Virus record (IMG/VR): IMGVR_UViG_3300035670_000496
Coordinates: 1-41,708 of that record
Direction: 5' to 3' (one strand)
From: a virus
DNA length: 41,708 nucleotides
The translations under genes and the position numbers were made by a program. A model generated the notes under the pieces. That model ran no database searches, was not told the origin of the DNA, and saw nothing but the letters and a program-made list of their open reading frames with translations. Shown piece after piece: positions 33,298 to 41,708 of the stretch. The first letter of the stretch is position 1; each line of letters opens with the position of its first letter.

Positions 33298-34044
33298 TCA
33301 GGGATCGGTCTCTGGGATGCAGATGCTAGACGCGGGCTCTCCGGGGTTCAGCACAACGGGTCCGCATCGAGTAGACGGGAGACACCGACTCGAACCAGAG
33401 CACCTCCGAAGGCACTGACCGGGCTGGTTCACTCGAACTGCGCAGGCCTGTCCAACACCCGCATCTGTGACCTCGACGCACGGCGGCGGCAACGGAAGCC
33501 CGGTGCATCTGTACGCGCAGATGCCGCGCGGCGAGTCTTCCCGGTCCCAACCGAGCGCTGGCAGGCACTCGGAGCCGTCCGCACACGGCGTGCCGACCAC
33601 GCGGCACGCCTGATGGAGCGTCCCGCGGTTCGGCCCCACGTCCGCCACCGCGGCATCCACGACATCCGCCGCGGGCCCCGCGTCGAACGGCGTGCCGCAC
33701 CTGCACCCGCCCCACCGCGCCGACGCCTCGCACGCACGCATCCCCAGCGCGCCGCTGCCGCAGGTGCACTGCTCTGACGCGCCGGGCTGACACTGCACCA
33801 CGTCCGTCGTGACCACGTCTCCCGACGTCGCGTCGGCACCTGGTGTGACCGACGTGTCGCCGCCGGCGTCGACCCCGCACGCGCACGCTCCGTAGCTCGA
33901 CCCGTCCGCCGCGCAGACCTGAGCGCCGGTCCCGATCCCGGGGCAGACGCACGCCACCGAGGCGCCGGGGGTGCAGCGGGTGGGCGCGGGCGCGCTCGAG
34001 CACGCGACGACGAAGAGCAGGGCGAGGGCGAGGGCGTGACGCAT
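33298..34044 (-). CDS. Cys-rich surface lipoprotein (moron)
   Basis: A 248-residue protein. A basic start, hydrophobic run and lipobox (MRHALALALLFVVAC, Cys15) mark a lipoprotein. The mature part has two related Cys motifs, CTPGASVACVCPGIG with GAQVCAADGSSYGACAC, and CQPGASEQCTCGSG with MRACEASARWGGCRC, then a third Cys-rich region to the C-terminus. This style of CxPG/CxC repeats is common in myxobacterial surface lipoproteins. It is the only gene on the minus strand in the late region and is convergent with gpJ, so it has its own transcription: a moron, perhaps expressed in the lysogen. The initiation codon is uncertain (ATG at 34044; another at 34056). Confidence 0.8.
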   Translation of the reverse strand: MRHALALALLFVVACSSAPAPTRCTPGASVACVCPGIGTGAQVCAADGSSYGACACGVDAGGDTSVTPGADATSGDVVTTDVVQCQPGASEQCTCGSGALGMRACEASARWGGCRCGTPFDAGPAADVVDAAVADVGPNRGTLHQACRVVGTPCADGSECLPALGWDREDSPRGICAYRCTGLPLPPPCVEVTDAGVGQACAVRVNQPGQCLRRCSGSSRCLPSTRCGPVVLNPGEPASSICIPETDP

Positions 34045-34138
34045 CGCCGTGACCATACGTCGGCGCCCCGCCCTCTTCGCAAGACCCGCACACGACCTCC
34101 CCCACCGCGGTGACCCACCGCGAGGAGCGCACACCCCC

Positions 34139-34597
34139 ATGCTCTACGACAAGAGGGCCGTCGTCGGCCTCGCCGATGAAGTCACGCCCACCGGGACCGC
34201 TGCCGAGTCCGCCGAGCTCGACATCGCGAACGAAAGCCTCGTCGCCCTGCACGTCTTCTACGAGGCGGACGGCAGCGGCAAGACGCTGCGCCTCTACCCC
34301 GAGGTGCGCCTCCCGCTCCCGGGCGTGGCCGCCGAGGATCTGCCGTGGGTCCCGGCGCTGAGCGCCTCTCTCGACGTGAGCGGCGCCACCGTCGACGCCG
34401 CGGGCTACCTCCCGCTCCCGGGTGCGTCGCCCGTGCTGGAGGTCGCGGGCATCAGCGGCGTGGAGGTGCTCACCACGCTCCACCTCCCGGTGCCCACCGG
34501 GGATCGCTTCCGGGTGCGCCACCTCGAAGACGGCTACGACGTCGCAGAGCCCGCCGCGCTGTCGCTCTACGCCGCCGCGGTGCGAGGTGCGCCGTGA
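34139..34597 (+). CDS. Tail-associated hypothetical protein
   Basis: A 152-residue, beta-strand-rich protein with DGSGKTLRLYPEVRLPLPG and VAGISGVEVLTTLHLPVPTG. GAGGAG lies about 11 bases before the ATG. It resumes the late operon after the lipoprotein gene and is coupled to the following fibre-like gene, so a fibre accessory or assembly role is possible. No family recognised. Confidence 0.5.
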   Translation: MLYDKRAVVGLADEVTPTGTAAESAELDIANESLVALHVFYEADGSGKTLRLYPEVRLPLPGVAAEDLPWVPALSASLDVSGATVDAAGYLPLPGASPVLEVAGISGVEVLTTLHLPVPTGDRFRVRHLEDGYDVAEPAALSLYAAAVRGAP

Positions 34598-35541: not shown

Positions 35542-35657
35542 CCGCCGCCGCGCTCTGGCTCTGCCTGCGCGTGCTCGTGCGCGACCACCGCACGCCCCTC
35601 GTGCCCCCGCGCGTCGACGTGCGCGCCGATGGGCCGCGCCTCGCGCGGGGGCTGTGA
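35538..35657 (+). CDS. Tiny hypothetical protein
   Basis: A 39-residue product (VTAAALWLCLRVLVRDHRTP and a Pro/Arg/Val-rich end) with a short hydrophobic N-terminus. Accepted for its GTGA and TGATG couplings to both neighbours. Confidence 0.4.
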   Translation: MTAAALWLCLRVLVRDHRTPLVPPRVDVRADGPRLARGL

Positions 35658-36124
35658 TGCCGCCCTGGCTGCAGGCCGTGCTCGCCTCCGCAGCGGTCCT
35701 CGCGACCTATTCGGCGATCGTCGCGCGGTGGGGCGGCCGCGCGCAGCGACAGGACACCGACGGGCGCGTGCTGGAGCGCACGGCCGATGCGGCGCAGCGC
35801 CACGACGTGACCGACGCGACGATGAGCACCACGCTGCGCACGCTCATCGACACGGTCTCGAAGATGAGCACCACCCTCGACGCGGTGGCGGCGAAGATCG
35901 GCGCGCACGACGTGGCCGCCGCCGAGGCGCGTGCGAAGGCCGATGCGGAGCGCGACCGGGTGACGCGCGTCGAGGCCCAGGTCAACGACCTCGCCTCTCG
36001 TGTCCTCGACGTGGACCACCGACAGACCGAGGCGCGGCACACGCTGCGCGCGGAGATGCACACAGCGATGGCGGCGCTCCGCGCCGAGGTGACCAATGCT
36101 CCACGCCCTCGTGGTGGAAGATGA
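35657..36124 (+). CDS. Membrane-anchored coiled-coil protein (lysis cassette)
   Basis: A 155-residue protein. Residues 4-22 form a membrane segment (WLQAVLASAAVLATYSAIV), followed by a long charged helix and repeated coiled-coil-like stretches (VSKMSTTLDAVAAKIGAHDV). The topology resembles an Rz-type inner-membrane spanin or a class III holin partner. It is the first substantial gene of the lysis/accessory cassette. Its last 29 bases overlap the start of the CheY-like gene. Confidence 0.55.
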   Translation: MPPWLQAVLASAAVLATYSAIVARWGGRAQRQDTDGRVLERTADAAQRHDVTDATMSTTLRTLIDTVSKMSTTLDAVAAKIGAHDVAAAEARAKADAERDRVTRVEAQVNDLASRVLDVDHRQTEARHTLRAEMHTAMAALRAEVTNAPRPRGGR

Positions 36125-36485
36125 CGACGGCCACGCCGACCTCGCCGTCGACGCCCTGCGCGGCATCGCGATGGTCCAGCGCGCTGCGCACGCCGACGAA
36201 GCCCTCGCGGTGCTCGCGTGGGTCGTGCCCGACGTCGTGCTCTGCGACCTGCGCGGCACGTCGGACGCGGCGCCGATGCTCGCGGCCACGTCCCTGCGGA
36301 TCGCGATGGACCGCGCCGGGGACCGCGTGCGCGCGCGGATCCCGCTGGTGCTTGCCTCGGGCCTCGACCCGCACGTGCTGCGCGAGATCGCCGCGTCGCT
36401 CGTGCACACCCACGCGCTCCCAAAGCCCTTCTCCCGCAACGACCTCCGCGCCCTCGTGGCGCGCGTCACTGGAGTGACCCCATGA
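36096..36485 (+). CDS. Stand-alone CheY-like receiver domain
   Basis: This 129-residue protein is a complete receiver domain with all key positions visible: the acidic pocket E8-D9-D10 (LVVEDDD), phospho-acceptor D51 (VVLCDLRG), the conserved Ser/Thr at S88 (VLASG) and switch Lys at K110 (LPKPFS). Spacing agrees with CheY. No output domain is attached. Such proteins accept phosphate from a histidine kinase and bind partners. It lies between a membrane coiled-coil gene and a membrane/lipobox gene. Phage-encoded receivers are uncommon. Recruitment from a host two-component system is inferred. Confidence 0.85.
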   Translation: MLHALVVEDDDGHADLAVDALRGIAMVQRAAHADEALAVLAWVVPDVVLCDLRGTSDAAPMLAATSLRIAMDRAGDRVRARIPLVLASGLDPHVLREIAASLVHTHALPKPFSRNDLRALVARVTGVTP

Positions 36486-37078
36486 CCTCGTCTCAGCTCC
36501 TGCAATGGCTCTCGGACCACGCGGCGTCGCTGTGGCCCATCGTCTCCGCGCTCCTCGTGATCGTGCTGCGCTCGCGCACGCCCGAGGCGTGGGTCGCGCT
36601 CGGTGAGACCTCCCCGCGGTGGCAGGGCGTGATCCGCCTGCTGCGCGCGGTGGGCCTCGACCCGGCCAAGGCGCTCAGCGCCCTCGGGCAGATCGTCACC
36701 GGCCGCGCCCCCGCGCGTGCGCTGCAGATCGCGGACACCGTCCAGCGCGCGACGCAGGCCCCGCCGCCCCCGAGCGACCCCCAGCGCGGCGCCGTGCGCG
36801 TGGGCGCGCTGCTGGCGATCTGCGTCGCGGTGCTCTGCGCCACCGCGGTGGGCGCGGTGCTCACCGGGTGCCCTCGCCCGCGCGACTGCACCCCTGCGTC
36901 GCAGCGGTGCGAGGGCGACACGCCTGTGGTCTGCGACGGCGAGGGCCGATCGTGGCGCGCGTCGGGTGATCCCGTCGTGACCTGCGCTCAGGTCGGCGGC
37001 GTGTGCCTCGTGCGCGAGGGCCGCGCCTACTGCGGGCGCGCTGACGCTGGCGTCGCCTCGGATGGAGGTGCGCTGTGA
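36482..37078 (+). CDS. Two-helix membrane protein with lipobox and Cys-rich tail
   Basis: A 198-residue protein. A holin-like N-terminal membrane segment (residues about 17-29, LWPIVSALLVIVL) is followed by a soluble helical part and a second hydrophobic stretch (about 107-128) ending in a lipobox-like AVLTGC with Cys130. The remaining 68 residues are Cys-rich in the style of myxobacterial surface proteins (CTPASQRCEGDTPVVC). An in-frame GTG near codon 105 could produce a separate lipoprotein, an outer-membrane spanin analogue. The joint protein may act as holin plus spanin. Confidence 0.6.
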   Translation: MTSSQLLQWLSDHAASLWPIVSALLVIVLRSRTPEAWVALGETSPRWQGVIRLLRAVGLDPAKALSALGQIVTGRAPARALQIADTVQRATQAPPPPSDPQRGAVRVGALLAICVAVLCATAVGAVLTGCPRPRDCTPASQRCEGDTPVVCDGEGRSWRASGDPVVTCAQVGGVCLVREGRAYCGRADAGVASDGGAL

Positions 37079-37788
37079 CCGCCGTGATCCTCCCCTCGCA
37101 CGCTCACGCCCTGCGCCGCGCCATCGAGGCCACGGGCGTCAACGTCGTCACCCCCGACAGCCCCGACCGCGCCCTCGTGCTCGACGTGCTCTCGCTCGCG
37201 CAGCTCGCGGGCAAGGGCTGGCCGCGCGAGCACGCCGCGCGCTTCGTGAGCGTGGCCTTCCCGGCGCTGCCCTCGCCGCTCCCCGAGCTGCTCACCCTCG
37301 GCGGCGTCGCGCTCGCGCCCTTCACCTCCCTCGGCGGGGAAGCCCTCGCGGCCCTCGCGAAGCTCACCTCGCGCCCGCTGATCTCGCTCTCCCCCGCGGC
37401 GCTGGAGTCGCCCGAGGAGACCGTCAAGACCCTCGCGCACGAGTGGACCCACATCCTGCAGGGCGACGCGGGCGGGATCATGCACCCGCTGGTCTACCTG
37501 ATTCGCGCCGACGAGCGTTGCCTCGGGGCCGAGGCGCCGGCCTACGCCTGCAACCTCGCCTTCGGGCTGTGGTGCCGCGGGGTCGACCCGGTGGCGCACG
37601 CCGCCGAGCTTGCCGAGGGGCTGCGCGCCTACGGCGCCGACGATCGCCTGGTGGTCGACGCGCGGGCGATCCTGCACTCGCACGCCCTCACCTTGCTCGA
37701 CGGGCTCTGCCCGCCCGTGGAGGGGCTGCGGCGCGCAGTGCGGGTGCTCACCGAGGCGGGGGTCCAGGGCCTCCCGGTGCTGCCGTGA
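37075..37788 (+). CDS. HExxH metalloprotease-like protein
   Basis: A 237-residue protein. LAHEWTHILQG at residues 120-130 is a zinc-protease HExxH motif (H122, E123, H126). A Glu in GAEAPAYACN about 30 residues later could be the third zinc ligand in a gluzincin-type arrangement. No signal peptide is evident. It lies between the lipobox protein and the endolysin. Degradation of the host envelope or a processing role during lysis is possible. Start: GTG overlapping the upstream stop, after GGAGG. Confidence 0.65.
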   Translation: MTAVILPSHAHALRRAIEATGVNVVTPDSPDRALVLDVLSLAQLAGKGWPREHAARFVSVAFPALPSPLPELLTLGGVALAPFTSLGGEALAALAKLTSRPLISLSPAALESPEETVKTLAHEWTHILQGDAGGIMHPLVYLIRADERCLGAEAPAYACNLAFGLWCRGVDPVAHAAELAEGLRAYGADDRLVVDARAILHSHALTLLDGLCPPVEGLRRAVRVLTEAGVQGLPVLP

Positions 37789-38735
37789 GCGGGCCCCTCG
37801 CACCTGCGGTGGTGGTGACGGTGTGGCCCGGCGGTGGCGTGCGCGCCTCCCTCGGCCCCGTGCGGCACATGCTGGAGCGCCTCGCCCGCCGCGCGGCCCC
37901 GGGCGACCTCGTCGCGTGCATCCACGACCCTGTGAACGGCGACGAGCGCCCGCTCTACGACCTCGCGCGCTCCCTCGGGCTGCGCGTGTGGAGCGCGTGG
38001 GGGGCCAATCCCCTCGTGCGCGTCGCGCGAACGCAGGGCGTGCTCGCGGCCACGCAGATCGCGGAGCGGTGGGCCAAGGGCGCGGCGGACCTCGGCGCCG
38101 AGGTCGTGGAGATCAACGGCGAGCGCAGCGGACAGGCCAACCTGAACGACTGGGTGATCGACGCTCCCGGCGACGCGGAGCTGCTGCCCCAGCTCGCCAC
38201 GGGCATCATCGCCGCCGTGCGCCGCGGGGCTCCGCGGGCGCTGGTGAGCCTCACCTCGCACGACCACGCGCGGTTCCACCGGCTCCCCTGGCGGGCCTTC
38301 CTCGGCACGGGGGGCGTGGACCTCCATGCGCCGCAGGTCTACGCCGTCGACCCCTCCGACGCCGCGCCCGAGACGCACACCGATGCGCGGGCGCGCCTGC
38401 GGGCGCACACCGCCGACGCCCTGCGCCTCGTGGCCGCAGGCGACTGCCGCCCCGAACTCGCGCCCGGCGGCGCGGGGTGGACGCCTTACGGGCAGGTCCA
38501 CTCGCTCACCACCGCGGGCGCGGCCATCGTGCTCGACGCGGCCGACACCGTCCGCGCGTGGGCGCTCCCCACCCGGTGCGACGAGGCGGGGCTGCGCGCG
38601 CTCGAGGTCGTGCTCACGGCGCGGCGGGAATGCGGTCGCAGCGCCGGGGCCATCGCCCGCTGGCAGGCCGCACACGGGCTCGACGCGGACGGCGTCGCGG
38701 GGCCGATGACCTGCGCCGCGATGGGGTTGACGTGA
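37785..38735 (+). CDS. Endolysin (glycosidase-like with PG-binding domain)
   Basis: A 316-residue protein. The N-terminal 240 residues look like a TIM-barrel hydrolase: a beta-strand VVVTVWPGGGVRASL, a central VVEINGERSG that could hold an acid/base Glu, and GGVDLHAPQVYAVD. Residues about 287-316 read GAIARWQAAHGLDADGVAGP then MTCAAMGL, the peptidoglycan-binding (PG_binding_1) signature. The combination is typical of phage lysins that cut cell-wall glycan. No signal sequence is seen, so release would depend on a holin. Confidence 0.72.
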   Translation: MSGPLAPAVVVTVWPGGGVRASLGPVRHMLERLARRAAPGDLVACIHDPVNGDERPLYDLARSLGLRVWSAWGANPLVRVARTQGVLAATQIAERWAKGAADLGAEVVEINGERSGQANLNDWVIDAPGDAELLPQLATGIIAAVRRGAPRALVSLTSHDHARFHRLPWRAFLGTGGVDLHAPQVYAVDPSDAAPETHTDARARLRAHTADALRLVAAGDCRPELAPGGAGWTPYGQVHSLTTAGAAIVLDAADTVRAWALPTRCDEAGLRALEVVLTARRECGRSAGAIARWQAAHGLDADGVAGPMTCAAMGLT

Positions 38736-40594: not shown

Positions 40595-41708
40595 TCAGCC
40601 CCGCCGCCGCAGGGGGAGCACCGGGGCCGCGCCGCTGCCCGAGAGCACCGAGGCCAGGCCCATGTCGACCGCGGGCCTCTCGGCGTCGCTCCTGTACCGC
40701 CCGAGGTAGCGCTGCGTCGTGGCGATGTCGCTGTGCCCGAGCAGGCGCTGCACGTCGCGCAGGGACACGCCGGGGCGCCGCGACATCTCCGTGGCGAAGG
40801 TCCGCCGCGCGTCGTGCATCCCCGGCGCATCACCGGGCAGGCCTGCGCGCTCCCAGGCCGGGGTGATGCGCGCCTCGATCCAGTGGCCGCCCAGGGCGAG
40901 CTTCTCCCCGTTGAGCCCCACGGCCCTTGTGCGCCACGCCGCGAGCTCGCGCGCGAGGTCTGCCACCGCGGGCGGCACGGGGACGGATCGCTCCTCGCGG
41001 TTCTTCGGGCGCCACTCGCCCCACGCGCGCACGCTCACCACGTCGGCGCCGATGTCCTCGGCGCGCAGGTGCCGCAGCTCGTCCACGCGCAAGCCGGTCT
41101 GCACTGCCACGGCCACGAGCACGGCCACGCCGCGGGCGTTCGCCGCAGTTCGGGCGCGGCCCTCGGCGGTGTCGCGCGGGGACGGCTCTCGCTCGAGCTC
41201 TCGCACCACCTGCGCCCACTCGGCGGGGGACGGGATCAGCGGGTCGCGGTTGCGGGCGATCTCGGGGAGGTTCCGCCACGCGCCGAGGGCGCCGGCGTCG
41301 CAGAGGGGCGGGCGCCTCGACGCGGCCCACCGGGCCATCGCGCGCGCCACCTGGATCGTGCGGTTGATGGTCGCGGCGGTGATGGGCTCGCCACCGCGTG
41401 CGGGGCGGGCGCGCTCTTCGCGGACCCACCGCGTGAGCACGTCGTCGGTGATCGCGGTGATGGACCGCACGCCCTGGGTGTCGAGGTCGCGCAGGAAGGC
41501 GCTCAGGCGGTAGGCGGCGTTTTCGCGCTGGCGCTTCGCCCACCGGTCGACGTGGGCTGCGATGAAGAGGTCAGCGAGGTCGGTCAGAGCTTCGCAGCGG
41601 CCTTCAGCCGCGCGAGGAGCGAGGGCGCCCGCCCCGAAGCGCGCGGCAGCGACGCGGTACGCTTCGGCCTGCGGGACGTCGGCGGTGGCGAGCCCGAGGG
41701 AGAGTCGT
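40595..41708 (-). CDS. int: Tyrosine integrase, main part (continues at base 1)
   Basis: Joined with 228-1 this is a 404-residue phage integrase; the frame is continuous through 41581/1. Catalytic residues in the joined protein: R241 (TGLRVDELR), K269 (RPKNREE), H332 and R335 (MHDARRTF), H359 (LLGHSDI) and nucleophile Y368 (TTQRYLG). A core-binding SAM-like domain (about residues 80-180) contains INRTIQVARAMARWA. The gene ends against attP. It catalyses recombination between the tRNA-Arg-like attP and a host attB. It is the last gene of the leftward early operon. Confidence 0.93.
   Translation of the reverse strand, partial: RLSLGLATADVPQAEAYRVAAARFGAGALAPRAAEGRCEALTDLADLFIAAHVDRWAKRQRENAAYRLSAFLRDLDTQGVRSITAITDDVLTRWVREERARPARGGEPITAATINRTIQVARAMARWAASRRPPLCDAGALGAWRNLPEIARNRDPLIPSPAEWAQVVRELEREPSPRDTAEGRARTAANARGVAVLVAVAVQTGLRVDELRHLRAEDIGADVVSVRAWGEWRPKNREERSVPVPPAVADLARELAAWRTRAVGLNGEKLALGGHWIEARITPAWERAGLPGDAPGMHDARRTFATEMSRRPGVSLRDVQRLLGHSDIATTQRYLGRYRSDAERPAVDMGLASVLSGSGAAPVLPLRRRG
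41582..41708. repeat. Terminal direct repeat, copy 2 (circular overlap)
   Basis: Identical to bases 1-127. It carries the same integrase and excisionase-like coding sequence and should be counted once. Confidence 0.95.

Follow-up and report, generated by a model that had tools for sequence, protein, structure and literature searches.

A divergent stand-alone receiver domain conserved beside the lysis genes of uncultivated phages

Analysis of a 41,708-base IMG/VR virus record with 73.8% GC (the window) identified a gene between the tail genes and the cell-bursting (lysis) genes whose 129-residue product is, as judged from its sequence and predicted structure, a divergent receiver domain and nothing else. 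Homologues are encoded by four other uncultivated phages, here L002, L003, L004 and L009 (71%, 70%, 67% and 50% identity, respectively), which represent at least four phage lineages with the window, L003 and L004 being near-identical. Stand-alone receivers as such are a known kind of protein, and jumbo phages are known to carry a divergent receiver-like family, cRec; a conserved, stand-alone receiver in a lysis cassette is undescribed in the open-licence literature searched. The features discussed below are listed in Table 1.

Table 1. Positions of the receiver gene, its key codons and associated features in the window.
Feature	Coordinates	Strand	Remarks
Membrane-anchored coiled-coil protein, upstream	35654-36124	+	Start GTG 35654 or ATG 35657
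Stand-alone divergent receiver, 129 aa	36096-36485	+	ATG to TGA
Receiver codons E8/D9	36117-36122
Receiver codon D51	36246-36248
Receiver codon S88	36357-36359
Receiver codon K110	36423-36425
Translational junction	36471-36485	+	GGAG ribosome-binding-like site in last codons of receiver gene; ATGA stop/start overlap
Membrane protein, downstream, holin-like by layout	36482-37078	+	In-frame into second hydrophobic stretch
Cassette gene with HEWTH motif	37075-37788	+	Metallopeptidase-like by eye; no Pfam match
Candidate endolysin	37785-38735	+	C-terminal PG_binding_1, E 1.2e-4, just under cut-off
Tyrosine integrase	40595-41470	-

The receiver frame is the true coding frame of this region, since its GC content by codon position (0.82/0.47/0.93) fits a gene in a record of such high GC, whereas that of the rival long ORF on the same strand (0.72/0.83/0.67) does not. 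The gene shares 29 bp with the coiled-coil gene and an ATGA stop/start with the gene that follows, and between the closer homologue pairs synonymous change exceeds amino-acid change (dN 0.24 and dS 0.69 for the window and L003, NG86). The 129-residue ORF proposed in an earlier note on this DNA was recovered at its exact coordinates, with codon composition, dN<dS and the overlaps with both neighbours all in its favour.

The Pfam Response_reg profile matches residues 5-53 of the window protein (E 2.1e-4), and the most diverged homologue, from L009, is matched over its whole length (E 9.2e-5). The scores (21.9 bits for the window and at most 23.0 bits for the relatives) lie below the PF00072 gathering cut-off of 30.2 bits, and we do not claim the protein as a curated member of that family. 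A profile built from the five phage sequences aligned with cellular receivers over residues 2-125 with an hhalign probability of 99.2%, a test that is not unbiased because those receivers had been fetched by similarity. AlphaFold modelling from the five phage sequences alone gave a pLDDT of only 60.5, and the best PDB matches of that model were nonetheless receivers. With four cellular receivers added (nine sequences), the model reached a pLDDT of 95.9 and a pTM of 0.90 with the receiver order of elements, although this confidence depends partly on the cellular rows in the alignment; its best 50 PDB matches were all receivers or receiver-containing regulators, with TM scores of about 0.75-0.79. 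The alternating (beta/alpha)5 fold expected by the earlier note is predicted, with confidence once cellular receivers are included, and its reading of a protein that lacks an output domain also holds, as the receiver spans residues 2-125 of 129. Separately, the PADLOC SduA profile (Shedu, PDLC00405) matches receiver residues 4-60 (E 1.2e-5); the match runs through the N-terminal part of the profile, where some members may themselves possess a receiver-like domain.

Alignment of the five proteins, at identities down to 50%, showed that E8, D9, D51, S88 and K110 are invariant. With 45 of 130 columns invariant, all five named positions would be invariant by chance in approximately 0.4% of cases (hypergeometric). 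Asp51, the proposed phosphorylation site, is thus conserved in every relative, and neither outcome that the earlier note named as refuting its reading, a model lacking the receiver fold or a lost Asp51, occurred; D10, which had been counted among the key residues, is N, H or S in the relatives and is not one of them. The further claim that these residues stand at CheY spacing proved inexact. Thirty residues separate D57 from T87 in Escherichia coli CheY, versus 37 between D51 and S88 here, the extra length lying in an extended beta3-alpha3 loop and an extended alpha3 (residues 60-76 of the model). The classical switch features of CheY/OmpR-type receivers are absent: the MPxxDG turn after D51 is replaced by RGT/VS/TD (RGTSD in the window), and the position of the CheY switch residue Tyr106 is occupied by an invariant Ala107. 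The classical switch path may therefore differ, or not operate, in the phage receiver, though the phosphorylation site is kept.

Constraint is unevenly distributed along the protein. Between the window and L009, only 2 of 12 residues are kept in alpha1 and 5 of 22 in beta2-alpha2, versus 23 of 25 in beta5-alpha5. Codons within beta5-alpha5 do differ synonymously (such as 10 of 21 in the L002-L003 pair), which points to selection on the protein, with the qualification that the ribosome-binding site of the next gene also constrains the final residues. We accordingly discounted the C-terminal TGVT as protein evidence, as the same bases encode that site, and part of the C-terminal identity with L009 may reflect recombination, because the L009 cassette looks mosaic. 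Receivers in known complexes present alpha1 to the kinase and usually use alpha4-beta5-alpha5 for output. The combination of variable alpha1/alpha2 and constant beta5-alpha5 would suggest an input that changes and an output partner that stays the same.

The neighbourhood described in the earlier note, with a coiled-coil membrane protein upstream and a membrane/lipobox protein downstream, was borne out, and endolysin genes come next. The coiled-coil protein has a single N-terminal hydrophobic stretch followed by a charged helical region, and its gene lies directly upstream of the receiver gene in all five phages. The ATGA overlap and GGAG site at the junction with the next gene are likewise kept in 5/5. 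The downstream membrane protein carries a lipobox (LTGC) in its second hydrophobic stretch, followed by a Cys-rich tail; the copies in L002, L003 and L004 are 89-96% identical to that of the window, and L009 encodes a protein of a different family with a similar layout. Because the coiled-coil gene remains with the receiver even where the membrane protein changes family, its product appears to be the better candidate partner of the receiver.

Several details of the cassette vary between records. The membrane and lipobox/Cys-rich proteins form one open frame in the window and in L002 and are separate genes in L004, an arrangement that may reflect either a fusion or an inner start. At the endolysin region of L004 (L004:9567-10634) an Amidase_2 protein is encoded instead of PG_binding, with the coiled-coil/receiver pair still kept. 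The L009 cassette (L009:1-5395) appears mosaic in that its coiled-coil start is near-identical to that of L002, its lipobox protein is 82% identical to that of the window and the following 42 residues are 100% identical, diverged stretches separating these parts.

Searches for further family members using the C-terminal DNA motif, the coiled-coil protein, the membrane protein and the alignment always returned the same four records, and queries with the coiled-coil or membrane protein, which reach close relatives only, yielded no copy lacking the receiver. No relatives of the receiver were found in 50,697 phage records or in plasmids; full response regulators in the 'phages' collection were left out, as many of these records resemble host DNA or prophage predictions lacking annotation. 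The matches fetched from GTDB contigs were ordinary cellular receivers that carry output domains or lie next to kinases, and 379 Myxococcota genomes contained no close match, the best being weak, mostly confined to the first 70 residues and in two cases within much longer frames. To the question raised in the earlier note, whether the nearest relatives belong to hosts or to phages, the answer is therefore other phage receivers. Recent capture from a host was rejected, given that no close cellular relative was found in the GTDB contigs or the Myxococcota genomes.

The window encodes Mu-like head proteins (portal, I-type protease and gpT capsid), tail sheath, tape measure and baseplate J proteins, and a tyrosine integrase, a gene content that indicates a temperate contractile-tailed phage. 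Portal, capsid and sheath proteins identical to those of the window are encoded in a further record (IMGVR_UViG_3300036770_007247, L010:1-9052), which by these matches stems from the window phage itself or from a very close relative. The named capsid nearest to that of the window is from Myxococcus phage Mx4 (36%), and capsids of Myxococcota prophages are 39-41% identical. These values lend weak support to the myxobacterial host suggested earlier, which is only probable because Pseudomonas phages follow closely at 34%. Mx4 and the fetched Myxococcota prophage stretches share structural genes with the window; the former has no match to the receiver and the latter none to the cassette. An opposite-strand ORF with an inner ATG start lies within the late tail region (33298-34140, minus strand; MRHALALALLFVVACSS...). 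Its product, Cys-rich and bearing a lipobox, looks like a lipoprotein and resembles a host-type accessory (moron) gene product, with no match in Pfam or in plasmids.

HATPase_c, HisKA and Hpt profiles gave no match in the five phage records, some of which are fragments, while controls were positive. A phage-borne two-component system was consequently set aside, as no cognate histidine kinase or HPt protein was recognised in these records; the phosphoryl donor would then have to be the host or a small molecule. The coiled-coil protein does feature an invariant H129 within an H-x-L-R-x-x-M/L stretch that resembles a histidine kinase H-box. This pattern arises with a probability of 0.36% under column shuffling, but it was chosen after it had been seen, and neither profiles nor the PDB support an H-box here; for both reasons we treat it only as a lead. 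A two-protein phage module, in which H129 would exchange phosphoryl groups with D51 of the receiver and host signalling would set lysis timing from the membrane, is very unlikely.

Our tentative preference is for a phosphorylatable adaptor that is fed by host kinases and acts during lysis on a membrane partner encoded by the phage. D51 would most likely take its phosphoryl group from a host histidine kinase, an HPt protein or acetyl phosphate, as no kinase is recognisable in the phage itself. The receiver would probably be translated late, together with the lysis cassette, and serve as a phosphorylation-dependent adaptor for a conserved partner from the phage. The upstream coiled-coil protein is the likeliest such partner, and the signalling state of the host could in this way influence the last steps of infection. 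Such an adaptor is consistent with the Response_reg match, full-length profile alignment, predicted receiver fold and five invariant residues, and with a gene order and ATGA overlap kept in all five phages, endolysin genes next in line and no phage kinase or HPt found. The contrast of variable alpha1/alpha2 with conserved beta5-alpha5, and the persistence of the coiled-coil gene beside the receiver in L009, also fit it. Against it stand the sub-cut-off Pfam score, the missing MPxxDG turn and switch aromatic, the low pLDDT of the phage-only model, the constraint of the ribosome-binding site on the C-terminal end and the mosaic cassette of L009.

The same kept phosphoacceptor site, without an output domain or a phage kinase, could also describe a decoy or phosphate sink: a free receiver that drains or occupies host kinases or HPt proteins, silencing a host two-component pathway with no role in lysis. 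Small phage proteins that target host kinases are known, an example being PIT4 of phage LSL4, to which several histidine kinases bind (PMC10714779). We nevertheless consider this rather unlikely, because the receiver is kept beside lysis genes and accompanied in every case by the coiled-coil gene, a late tail/lysis position is odd for a takeover gene, and conserved beta5-alpha5 argues against a pure decoy; alpha1, the expected kinase-facing surface, is also the least conserved part, although this could also mean adaptation to different hosts. Loss of the switch aromatic and the MPxxDG turn would instead suit a receiver fold whose binding to a host kinase or phage protein needs no phosphorylation. 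The precedent is Osp of Rhodobacter sphaeroides, the product of a cellular gene under CtrA, which inhibits CckA directly without being phosphorylated (PMC9430884). Osp is likewise a single receiver-fold protein with Asp at position 51, but it lacks the acidic pair and the lysine, whereas the phage family keeps all five residues in 5/5, and binding of this kind, though like the decoy a real rival, is unlikely.

An enzyme-like role, with cyclic phosphates as substrates in place of phosphotransfer, would parallel cRec, a divergent receiver-like domain with kept catalytic aspartates that was proposed for jumbo phages and likewise lies outside two-component operons (PMC7824862). However, cRec is defined by its linkage to NAD/ADP-ribose and RNA-ligase (RNA-repair) enzymes, and none of these was recognised among the neighbours of the phage receiver, which adjoins lysis genes; the two are set apart here by genomic linkage, and we regard the enzymatic reading as exceedingly improbable. 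Receivers are very common in bacterial genomes, including those of myxobacteria, and the gene could conceivably be a functionless passenger acquired by chance. This is scarcely credible and largely refuted by its conservation across phages, with neighbours and junctions kept in at least four lineages, constraint at the protein level and no close cellular relative.

Among characterised proteins, the phage receiver is most readily compared with single-domain response regulators of the CheY, Spo0F and CpdR type (PF00072), with which it shares the predicted fold, the acidic pair, the Asp, Ser/Thr and Lys residues and the lack of an output domain; CpdR itself was a weak full-length match to the L009 receiver. 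It differs from them in its lysis-cassette location, the absence of a nearby kinase, a score under the Pfam cut-off, an Asp-Ser distance seven residues longer, the lack of the MPxxDG turn and an Ala at the switch aromatic. Its tail and lysis genes also distinguish it from CheY, which belongs with chemotaxis genes. The best cellular matches are receivers beside hybrid kinases, which we take to be of the Rcp1 type, such as L005 from a Kofleriaceae MAG (49% identity over the first 52 residues, including VEDDDxHA). These differ in their adjacent histidine kinases, normal DLRLP turn and aromatic switch, and overall alignment identity is 33%.

Bacterial signalling relies on receiver domains as its standard input device. 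A conserved copy of this switch between tail and lysis genes suggests a virus that may monitor, or interfere with, the signalling of its host, in a small system that one substitution, D51N, would put to the test. If phosphorylation matters, the receiver would offer a direct route for host two-component signalling to reach the end of infection, or for the phage to jam that signalling.
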